Assembly (NCBI GenBank): GCA_018969485.1
Contig: JAGWYG010000027.1
Span: forward strand, 1-36,206
Direction of reading: 5' to 3'
DNA from: Chloroflexota bacterium
GTDB taxonomy: Bacteria > Chloroflexota > Chloroflexia > Chloroflexales > Roseiflexaceae
DNA length: 36,206 nt
A program made the translations under genes and the position numbers. Below are positions 15,607 to 33,470 of this stretch, piece after piece (position 1 is the stretch's first letter; each line of letters begins with the position of its first letter). A model generated the notes under the pieces. The model saw nothing but the letters and a program-made list of their open reading frames with translations, ran no database searches and was not told the DNA's origin.

Positions 15607-16311
15607 TCACTCGGGAAACTCGGCGCGGAACTCGTCGACGGCCTTCGGGCCACTGCGCTCAAGCCCCTGGTAGAAGGCGACGCGATCCTGGTTGCGGTAG
15701 TCGAGGCGCTCGACGCGGAATGGCGCCAGCCGCTCGCGGTTGCGCCGCCGCTCGCTCACGTCGAGGAAGTAGTCGATCGCATTCGCCACGCTGTGCGCGT
15801 CAGTCCAGTCCGATTTGTAGATCGGGATGCCGCTGCGCGCGAAGATCCAGGTCATGTTGGGCATGGAGCCGTATGCCCGGTGGCACGCGCCGTCGAGCGC
15901 ATCGAGCAGGATCGGCCGGGTCACGCCGAGCCGGTCGCGCAGATCGGCGGCATGACGATACTTCTGCTCCATCGAGGTGAGGTGGGGATAGTGCTCGCCC
16001 GGATGCGCCTCGTAGGTGTATACGAACACCGACGCCACATCGCGTGCGGCGACCCGCTCGGCCAACTGGTTCATGGATGGCGCCGCCATCCCGCAGTACG
16101 GTCAGGTGAAGCTGCCAAACTCGACGATGGTGTAGGTGTGCGCCGACCAGACGGCGCTCAGCGTCGTCGTGCCGCCGGCCAGCGGCCACAGCGGGAAGTC
16201 GGGCGCCGCGGCGCCGAGCGGCGGGCTGGCGTCGAATTGCATCCACGGCTGCCAGTTGGCTTTCACGAACGCATCGTAGTTGTACCGGCGAAGCAGTTCG
16301 TCATCGGTCAT
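15607..16311 (-). CDS. Iodothyronine-deiodinase-like protein, probable selenoprotein (in-frame TGA = Sec70)
   Basis: Reading through the TGA at 16104-16102 gives 234 residues of one thioredoxin-like domain. The flanks read VEFGSFT-U-PYCGM. This matches the catalytic FGSxTUPPF motif of animal deiodinases (T4_deiodinase family) and creates a Sec-x-x-Cys pair. Further on, YTYEAHPGEHYP matches the family EAHP segment carrying a catalytic His. Conservation continues without a break on both sides of the TGA (to YGSMPNMTWIF and beyond), which argues against decay. ATG 16311 has GGGGGAGG six bases upstream. There is no signal peptide or membrane anchor, unlike animal deiodinases, so it is probably a cytoplasmic redox enzyme rather than a thyroid-hormone enzyme. 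A SECIS-like hairpin follows the TGA. Alternatives are a nonsense-mutated gene or use of ATG 16089 for a truncated protein. Confidence 0.85.
16075..16091 (-). promoter_or_regulatory. Candidate bacterial SECIS hairpin within the coding sequence
   Basis: On the mRNA, GGATGG-CGGCG-CCATCC forms a perfect 6-bp stem with a five-base loop containing G. An alternative 7-bp stem has a GGC loop. The apical loop starts 16 bases after the UGA. Known bacterial SECIS elements lie immediately 3' of UGA with a small G-containing loop at about this distance and are bound by SelB. Confidence 0.65.
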
Positions 16312-16328
16312 CGCATTCCTCCCCCTGA

Positions 16329-16352
16329 CTGCATGCGTCACTGCATGCGTCA
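16329..16352. repeat. 12-bp tandem repeat at the transcription start of the selenoprotein-like gene
   Basis: ctgcatgcgtca occurs twice in direct tandem. It overlaps the last base of the -10 box and the predicted start site of the minus-strand promoter. Each copy contains a gcatgc palindrome. The placement suits a repressor operator, but no regulator is known. Confidence 0.6.
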
Positions 16353-16380
16353 CCATACGCGCCGGCGTTGGCGCTGTCAA
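16352..16380 (-). promoter_or_regulatory. Sigma-70-type promoter for the deiodinase-like gene
   Basis: Minus-strand TTGACA (16380-16375), a 17-base spacer and TATGGT (16357-16352). Transcription would start about 34 bases before ATG 16311, leaving room for the GGGGGAGG ribosome site. A functional promoter supports expression rather than a pseudogene. Confidence 0.7.
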
Positions 16381-16480
16381 GCAAGGGCGCGAGACCGGGA
16401 GCGGGTACGTCCGAGGCCAATCATCAACGCCATCGCGGAATTGCCACGAGCACATGACCCTATTCGTGCACGCCACCCGC

Positions 16481-18844: not shown

Positions 18845-19022
18845 CGCGGCGCCTGCCCGCCGCCGGCCACATCGACGCTTCCGGCGTCGCCAGACGCCGG
18901 ACGTCGGCACGCGAGGGCGCGCGGCCACGCCCTCACCGCCGGCCCCGCTCCCGTGCGCACGGGAGCGGGGTCCGTCGCGGCGCAGTGCCGCCCGCGGGCG
19001 TCAGGCGGGGCGTGTAGGCCCG
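18845..19022. other. Convergent intergenic region with REP-like sequence
   Basis: Downstream of the VIT/VWA stop. It contains a perfect 28-bp palindrome within a ctcaccgccggccccgctcc context, a type of GC-rich dispersed intergenic repeat seen in many GC-rich bacteria. No gene is evident. Confidence 0.6.
18943..18970. terminator. Perfect 28-bp palindrome, candidate bidirectional terminator or REP element
   Basis: CCCCGCTCCCGTGC is followed directly by its reverse complement GCACGGGAGCGGGG. It can form a 12-bp stem with a four-base loop on either strand. It lies between convergent genes. There is no T-run, so a dispersed REP-like repeat is equally likely. Confidence 0.55.
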
Positions 19023-19235
19023 CCCCTTCGTGTCTTCGTGTCTTCGTGTGAGCCCGTCTCCCGTCCCCCCGTGCCTTCGCCCCTTCGTGTCTTCGTGTCT
19101 TCGTGTGAGCCCGTCTCCCGGCCCTACGTGCCTTCGCCCCCACCCCTTCGTGTCTTCGTGTCTTCGTGTGAGCCCGTCTCCCGCCCCCCGCCCCCGGCCC
19201 TGCGTGCCTTCGTGTCTTCGTGTGAGCCCGCTCCC
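19023..19235. repeat. Direct-repeat array (HEDTKTRR type), four units
   Basis: Three 41-bp cores at 19023-19063, 19080-19120 and 19143-19183 are identical, and a shortened fourth copy lies at 19207-19235. Each full core holds three tandem cttcgtgt octamers followed by gagcccgtctcccg. Spacers of 16-23 bp are C-rich and themselves related (gtgccttcg). The minus strand reads as repeated HEDTKTRR. The nested octamers and non-unique spacers exclude a CRISPR. Similar sequences are widespread intergenic repeats. Here the array runs into the 3' end of the MFS gene. Confidence 0.95.
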
Positions 19236-32448: not shown

Positions 32449-32483
32449 GCAGCCGATCGCCGGCCGCACGCACGCGGGGGCAC

Positions 32484-32913
32484 GATCCGCGCCGCATCGG
32501 CATGCGCGGTCGTGCCTCTGCCACGGCGCCGGGGCATCAGCCGGGCGCTGCCGCCAGCACCAGCACCGGTGCGCCACCGCGTCACGCCAGCGCCCACGAG
32601 CGGCCGGCATCGCGCGTCTGCAGCAGCACGCCGTCGGTGCTGCCAGCCCATGCTGTGGACGGATCATCGCCCGACGGCGCCAGGCACGTGATCGCATCGA
32701 TCCGCGCCGCATCGGCATGCGCGGTCGTGCCTCTGCCACGGCGCCGGGGCATCAGCCGGGTGCTGCCGCCAGCACCAGCACCGGTGCGCCACCGCGCCAC
32801 GCCAGCGCCCACGAGCGGCCGGCATCGCGCGTCTGCAGCAGCATGCCGTCGGCGGTACCAGCCCACGCCGCAGCCGGATCATCGCCCGACGGCGCCAGGC
32901 ACGTGACGGCGCC
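32484..32913. repeat. 215-bp tandem duplication covering the 3' end of the BNR gene
   Basis: Copies at 32484-32698 and 32699-32913 align without gaps and are bounded by GATCCG at 32484, 32699 and 32914. Roughly the first 60 bases are identical; overall there are about a dozen or slightly more differences, mostly transitions. The proximal copy (32699-32913) encodes the C-terminus of the BNR protein. The distal copy is in another frame (215 is not divisible by three) and has TGA in place of the TGG in SWALAW, so it is a dead fragment. This accounts for the apparently empty 300 bases after the haem-protein gene. Confidence 0.9.
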
Positions 32914-33315
32914 GATCCGTTCGGCCGGCATGCGCGCCGCCTGCCAGTGGATGCCGCCATCCTCGCTGCGGAACAGCTGCGCGCCCGCCGCACCAGCGCC
33001 GAGCAACGCCGGCACACGCCCCTCCAGCGCCGCATAGGCCGTCGCGCCGGACAGCCGCGGCAGCGCGACGGCGCGCAGGCCCTGGCGCTGCACGACGCGC
33101 ACGCCGGGCGGCTGTGGCACCCGCGGCGCCACCTGCCAGCTTGCGCCACCATCAAAGCTCATCCAGCCACCGTCTGCACCACACCCCACCACCAGCGTCG
33201 CCGCGTCGAGCGCCTCCAGCGCCTCGACGCGCCGATCCGCCAGGATCATGCGCGGCAGCGCCGGCGACAGCCCGTCCCAGACCAGCAGCCCGGCCTCCGT
33301 CCCGATGAAGAGCAT
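32752..33315 (-). CDS. BNR/Asp-box repeat beta-propeller protein (187 aa)
   Basis: Asp-box motifs SFDGGASW, SEDGGIHW and TRDAGRSW occur at regular spacing, as in BNR/sialidase-like or YCF48-like propellers. At 187 residues it is shorter than a full propeller (usually over 300), so it may be truncated or form a partial blade set. The C-terminal ~55 residues come from the proximal copy of a 215-bp tandem duplication. No signal peptide is obvious. AGGAGG lies four bases before the second of two adjacent ATGs (33315), which I take as the start; 33318 is also possible. Divergent from the glutamine synthetase gene. Function unknown. Confidence 0.78.
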   Translation of the reverse strand: MLFIGTEAGLLVWDGLSPALPRMILADRRVEALEALDAATLVVGCGADGGWMSFDGGASWQVAPRVPQPPGVRVVQRQGLRAVALPRLSGATAYAALEGRVPALLGAGAAGAQLFRSEDGGIHWQAARMPAERIGAVTCLAPSGDDPAAAWAGTADGMLLQTRDAGRSWALAWRGGAPVLVLAAAPG

Positions 33316-33406
33316 CATCCCTCCTGACCCGACGGTTTGTACAGAATCGACAGACACGACGCAGTGCGGTTCGGATAGATTGCGGCTGCCCGTCGCACTG
33401 CCCGCA

Positions 33407-33415
33407 TGATACACT
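33407..33415 (+). promoter_or_regulatory. Candidate extended -10 promoter of the glutamine synthetase gene
   Basis: TG-A-TACACT lies 55 bases before ATG 33471. It fits an extended -10 element, and no convincing -35 box is seen. Confidence 0.45.
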
Positions 33416-33470
33416 GTGAGCGCGACGCGGTGCCCAGGGCGGCACACAGCAGAGAAGGATGCACATCACG

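Follow-up and report, generated by a model that had tools for sequence, protein, structure and literature searches.

A deiodinase-like selenoprotein gene with an in-frame TGA codon in a Chloroflexota genome

Introduction

A gene of an uncultured Roseiflexaceae bacterium (Chloroflexota) that resembles the iodothyronine deiodinases is divided by an in-frame TGA—does this codon encode selenocysteine (Sec), and what kind of enzyme would the resulting protein be? The locus lies within a window of 36,206 nucleotides, i.e., the whole stretch of contig JAGWYG010000027.1 that was analyzed. We addressed both aspects through the reading frame and its conservation, the RNA structure behind the TGA codon, the family to which the protein belongs, its active-site residues and the genomic context of its relatives.

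Results and discussion

A single in-frame TGA codon divides the gene

The elements of the gene and its upstream region are as follows.

15607..16311, (-) strand: deiodinase-like selenoprotein gene of 234 residues/codons; its single in-frame TGA encodes Sec, and a terminal TGA (15609-15607) is the stop
16102..16104, (-) strand: Sec codon TGA, residue U70 of FGSFT-U-PYC, read from the sequence; TGA in 78/78 site-covering relatives
16093..16095, (-) strand: Cys73 of UxxC, the putative resolving residue; present in all 84 aligned UPYC sequences
16000..16011, (-) strand: EAHP segment (E101, H103), equivalent to Glu200 and His202 of mouse DIO3; invariant (84/84) and aligned to the DIO3 EAHP in the profile search
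16318..16325, (-) strand: ribosome-binding site GGGGGAGG, read from the sequence, ending 6 nt before the ATG
16352..16380, (-) strand: sigma-70-like promoter TTGACA-17-TATGGT, a consensus match only (10/12 positions, 0.1 expected)

The gene boundaries and the reading of codon 70 as TGA (16104-16102) agree with the original prediction, which had also been right that this is the only such codon in a frame otherwise free of stops, and that FGSFT-U-PYC and EAHP are both present—the latter as EAHPGE, downstream of the former. Its ribosome site was recovered at 16325-16318, and the promoter it named is borne out as a match to the consensus (16380-16352). The prediction had further anticipated that annotation would split the gene, and a standard ORF call without read-through indeed returns two pieces, 16102-16476 and 15607-16089, the second starting at an ATG (16089) located just 3' of the codon-70 TGA. 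Additionally, a simple ORF caller wrongly picks antisense ORFs in GC-rich loci, the window being one example.

The TGA codon is conserved in a frame under purifying selection

The ortholog in the only same-genus genome found (L010) is 94% identical and carries the same TGA; comparison of the two genes gave a dN/dS of 0.14 upstream of the codon and of 0.03 downstream. Further copies with exactly one TGA emerged from a search of 400 Chloroflexota genomes, and a scan of the genomes of 84,980 species yielded 327 relatives—mostly Chloroflexota, with others assigned by record label to Planctomycetota, Gemmatimonadota, Acidobacteriota and Neomarinimicrobiota. Among the best 80 of these 327, TGA occupies the codon in all 78 that cover the site, the matches of the other two (L158 and L160) stopping short of it. 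A deiodinase-like gene with an in-frame TGA is therefore confirmed as a real observation, placed far beyond chance by the shared codon of the same-genus copy and its recurrence in 78/78 relatives.

These data bear directly on whether the TGA marks a genuine stop or arose as a sequencing error, the locus then being a pseudogene or two separate pieces. The split returned by standard ORF calling, with an ATG right past the TGA, fits such an explanation, as do the genome G048, which keeps a C-terminal part only, and the G131 copy, which has an internal deletion. However, the codon is TGA, never a different stop, in all 78 relatives, which come from separate assemblies, the segment behind it is the more constrained of the two, and a conserved hairpin follows directly. 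Pseudogene, two-piece gene and sequencing error were rejected on the strength of the codon conservation and the two dN/dS values, and we regard them as exceedingly improbable.

The original prediction had also proposed to ask whether homologues carry Sec or Cys at residue 70; relatives keep the TGA, and Cys appears in distant homologues only (L053 and L066). In the 22-sequence alignment, distant homologues with Sec display FGS[IV]T-U-PPF (L045, L049) or U-PIT-like forms, and the same column holds Ser in L046 and L048, Gly in L047 and Asp in L050. Since Cys, Ser, Gly and Asp all occur at this position, Sec is the norm in our sample and not universal in the wider family. The Ser, Gly and Asp homologues are possibly non-redox relatives, and their sequences suggest that the fold may be able to serve without Sec redox chemistry. 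These four proteins otherwise keep EAHPGE-type motifs, and the genomes that encode homologues of this type mostly possess Sec machinery too.

Two degraded or rearranged copies were observed as well. In G048 (Herpetosiphonaceae), the 73% identical copy L011/L160 comprises residues from ~83 on only, without the Sec site, and comes after an apparent DUF547 gene; SelA was not found in this genome (75% complete), in which tRNA-Sec, SelB and SelD were found. In L068 (G429), the first 31 residues of the family run into cupin-like sequence, the remainder apparently lost to a deletion or fusion.

A conserved hairpin and the Sec machinery

The region immediately behind the TGA codon contains one further element.

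16075..16091, (-) strand: bSECIS hairpin, stem 16091-16085 paired with 16081-16075, loop GGC at 16084-16082; from folding and a shuffle test

The 7-bp stem of this hairpin (GGATGGC-ggc-GCCATCC) starts 10 nt after UGA70, and the GGC loop lies 17 nt after it. According to a recent review, bacterial SECIS elements combine a stem of 4-16 bp with a loop that is 3-9 nt long and has a G within its first two positions (often G[G/U]), at a distance of 16-37 nt from the UGA and a minimum free energy of at most -7.5 kcal/mol (PMC13188914). The hairpin in the window conforms to all of these rules, with its 3-nt loop, 7 bp, G in first position, 17-nt distance and a 40-nt fold energy of -15.3 kcal/mol. An Rfam search identified no SECIS family near the TGA codon. 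Folding the single sequence proved uninformative—the 40-nt energy had a z of -1.5 against dinucleotide shuffles, 18/200 of which were as good—so a multi-gene test with synonymous shuffles decided the question. Across 84 UPYC genes, 6.62 of the 7 stem pairs were formed. When synonymous codons were shuffled within each gene, 200 shuffles gave 4.27 pairs (sd 0.10), peaked at 4.61 and never reached the observed value; the corresponding z of about 23 is not to be taken as a probability, because the sequences are related.

Compensatory changes were detected at pairs 14-30 (GC/CG), 15-29 (GC/TA) and 16-28 (AT/CG/TG), numbered from the T of TGA, and the loop has G as its second base in 51/84 genes and U in 33/84. 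The encoded protein covaries with the stem: Met (ATG) on the 5' side tends to occur with Ser on the 3' side and Leu (CTG) with Ala, such that the variants GMAAPSM and GLAAPAM keep the stem pair. Four relatives (L151, L152, L153 and L156) are without this stem register, and alternative hairpins are possible within the same 42 nt. Across the 84 genes, the hairpin is kept far beyond what protein coding demands.

The genome also harbors the components for Sec insertion that the original prediction had suggested looking for: a tRNA-Sec (67.7 bits vs. a gathering score of 47, with anticodon tca according to ARAGORN), SelA, SelB and a SelD that has one in-frame TGA of its own and contains Sec. Because selA is present in 322/400 Chloroflexota genomes, this machinery alone is weak evidence, necessary rather than telling. 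Any sense reading of the TGA would likewise keep the frame open, and a code change or suppressor could deliver an amino acid other than Sec. Against such decoding stand the Cys at this column in distant homologues, the use of TGA as the stop of the same gene, the Sec machinery with its TGA-containing selD and the agreement of the hairpin with the bSECIS rules; on these grounds, sense reassignment other than Sec was rejected, and we give it next to no credence. On comparative sequence grounds, the TGA at codon 70 is a selenocysteine codon, because it is invariant in 78/78 relatives, is flanked by purifying selection on both sides and is followed by a conserved, compensated hairpin that obeys the bSECIS rules, in a genome with the full machinery.

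Placement among deiodinases and thioredoxin-fold proteins

A profile built from the 22-sequence alignment and searched against solved structures retrieved mouse DIO3 (4tr3) first, at E=1.2e-21, followed by DIO2 (9h48) at 1e-16 and ResA-type thioredoxins at 1e-12. All 22 aligned members matched PF00837 (T4_deiodinase; best 7e-21), whereas the window protein alone reached 22.6 bits, under the cut-off of 27. The AlphaFold model of the protein (pLDDT 93.3, pTM 0.91) had 4tr3 as its best Foldseek match by a slight margin; fold alone is undecisive, since ResA and peroxiredoxins score close behind. In a maximum-likelihood tree, the deiodinases grouped with this family, apart from Chloroflexota thioredoxin-like proteins, in 1000/1000 bootstrap trees, and the UPYC clade received a bootstrap of 99%; the deiodinase sequences were fragments from the profile alignment, and no claim is therefore made on the precise branching order within it.

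The single-sequence scores for Redoxin (33.5 bits) and AhpC-TSA (31.3 bits), both over their cut-offs, together with the peroxiredoxins among the structural matches, raise the alternative of a peroxiredoxin-like protein that reduces peroxides with Sec. However, the peroxidatic TxxC motif is absent—U70 directly follows T69, and the T+3 position is Tyr72—and deiodinases outrank the best peroxiredoxin by ~15 orders of magnitude in the profile search. We consider a peroxidase rather unlikely.

The active site resembles that of animal deiodinases with a different cysteine

In the profile search, the nearest solved structures belong to the animal DIO1-3 (4tr3, 9h48), which share FGSxT-U-P and the active-site Tyr, Glu and His with the family. 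The DIO3 residues Ser167, Thr169, Sec170, Tyr197, Glu200 and His202 correspond to Ser67, Thr69, Sec70, Tyr98, Glu101 and His103; across the 84 UPYC sequences, only Thr69 (81/84) varies. Several of DIO3 Sec170, Thr169, Tyr197, Glu200 and His202 are needed for deiodinase activity (PMC7506546). In DIO1, the resolving cysteine (Cys124) lies two residues before Sec (PMC9141512). This CxU cysteine, as found in DIO1 and DIO3, is absent from the bacterial proteins, in which position 68 holds Phe (74/84) or, in the remaining sequences, Leu, Tyr, Val or Ile, and Cys in none; instead, the invariant Cys73 (84/84) makes a UxxC motif. Cys143 is common (72/84), not invariant. The deiodinase AHxxDGW and its long omega loop are likewise absent, replaced by EAHPGEHYP with a loop ~9 residues shorter, and with them Trp207 (DGW) is missing. 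In DIO3, the Arg275 clamp holds the amino-acid end of the hormone (PMC7506546); here, the position of this Arg/Lys clamp is taken by the following residue.

15805..15807, (-) strand: Trp169 at the DIO3 Arg275 (hormone clamp) position, Trp in 83/84; position from ungapped extension of the profile alignment

A hormone deiodinase was rejected, as the protein has neither the CxU cysteine nor the DGW loop nor the Arg275 clamp. The earlier proposal of a deiodinase-like protein that is a redox enzyme and not a hormone deiodinase is supported by the profile search and these missing clamp residues.

Genomic neighborhoods and physiological role

The gene in the window is flanked by a VIT/VWA gene on one side and a sugar ABC transporter operon on the other and appears to be solitary; since neighbors also vary among relatives, no partner could be identified in the window. 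In relatives, the gene directly follows that of glucose-6-phosphate dehydrogenase (G6PD; L109, L134, L143, L144 and L148), lies near a glutaredoxin-thioredoxin reductase fusion (L114 by Pfam; L106, L118 and L158 by similarity cluster) or is found beside genes for a VTT-domain protein and an FAD disulfide reductase (L130 and L133). These neighbors suit an NADPH-linked redox role and name no substrate, the neighborhood failing as a substrate guide because it differs between relatives. A thioredoxin-fold selenol/thiol reductase, and not a hormone deiodinase, is the likely role, given the invariant Cys73 and the G6PD, fusion and disulfide reductase neighbors of relatives.

A related question is whether the enzyme could be a deiodinase in the chemical sense, with reductive dehalogenation of an iodinated compound or a halogenated aromatic as its activity. 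The match of Sec, Thr69, Tyr98, Glu101 and His103 to DIO3 residues, several of them needed for activity (PMC7506546), speaks for this possibility. On the other side, the protein has neither Trp207 nor the long omega loop nor the Arg275 clamp, no halogen-related neighbors were seen in the relatives' neighborhoods examined, and one would not expect thyroid hormones in these bacteria. We judge this activity decidedly unlikely. Very doubtful, too, is the broader scenario of a selenium-obligate bacterial clade of deiodinase relatives that dehalogenates an environmental substrate reductively by a UxxC cycle—if true, hormone deiodinases would be a specialized offshoot of a bacterial dehalogenating selenoenzyme family.

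In eight relatives (L092, L102, L110, L122, L125, L131, L145 and L147), a DUF3179 lipoprotein gene lies directly upstream on the same strand and carries its own in-frame TGA in TW-U-P[ILV]CY; for L102, the reading of the TGA comes from a second copy that lies one gene farther upstream. DUF3179 (UxxC/T) is among the listed selenoprotein families, and the two genes form an apparent two-selenoprotein operon in these relatives. DUF3179 was absent from G000 and G001.

Several other features of the window were recorded. A divergent Cpn60/TCP-1 chaperonin (83-1690, (-) strand) and a BNR-like repeat protein (32752-33447, (-) strand) are encoded ~14 to 16 kb from the deiodinase-like gene; in Litorilinea-type relatives (L096), similar-looking chaperonin and BNR-like genes occur immediately upstream of it. 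Two 215-bp tandem copies with 94% identity (32483-32906) overlap the end of the BNR-like gene, and ~3.8 copies of a 57-bp repeat, internally holding repeats of CTTCGTGT, span 19021-19235.

Proposed mechanism

Taken together, the gene probably encodes a soluble, thioredoxin-fold deiodinase-like selenoprotein with SelB-directed Sec70 and a selenol/thiol cycle resolved by Cys73. Judging from the comparative evidence, SelB and Sec-tRNA would recognize the hairpin 10 nt past UGA70 and insert Sec. With help from Thr69, Glu101 and His103, as in the deiodinases of animals, the Sec70 selenolate may then attack a substrate that is oxidized or electrophilic, and Cys73 would resolve the selenium intermediate into a Sec70-Cys73 selenenyl-sulfide. 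A thioredoxin- or glutaredoxin-type donor could reduce this bond with NADPH-derived electrons, both cycle and donor being put forward as a proposal. The deiodinase kinship combined with a different resolving cysteine makes the protein a soluble bacterial model in which deiodinase-fold chemistry can be tested. Moreover, standard ORF calling splits genes of this type, and several hundred relatives are thus easily missed or mis-annotated as fragments.

Comparison with known systems

Bacterial deiodinase-like selenoproteins, in Sec and Cys forms and with bacterial SECIS elements, were described by Zhang et al. in 2005 from 4 marine metagenome sequences, with a proposed redox, not hormonal, role (PMC1088965). 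Reviews list the family as PF00837, UxxC, the functions of such bacterial selenoproteins remaining largely unknown (PMC9312934, PMC13188914). The novelty is modest for this reason, and the original prediction overstated it. The literature searched contained no description of a Sec-obligate Chloroflexota clade, of stem-driven protein covariation or of the DUF3179 pairing, an absence that is not proof of novelty; the covariation of protein residues with the stem and the two-selenoprotein operon of relatives are the most interesting aspects of the system.

Among established models, NCBIfam NF038285 (deiodinase_rel) matches the protein significantly (E=1e-12) but at 48.2 bits vs. a 250-bit cut-off, and its 347 positions include an extra N-terminal part. 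ResA/TlpA-type thioredoxins share the thioredoxin fold and a CxxC-like active site with the protein; they are without EAHPGE, and the Chloroflexota thioredoxin-like proteins were separated in 100% of bootstrap trees. The family of 2005 shares PF00837 homology, a UxxC Sec, a SECIS element right after the UGA and the proposed redox role; compared by description with the marine examples, the present proteins form a Chloroflexota-centered clade with Sec in 78/78 and the signature FGSFT-U-PYC. The gene in the window is a well-supported new member of this known bacterial deiodinase-like family.
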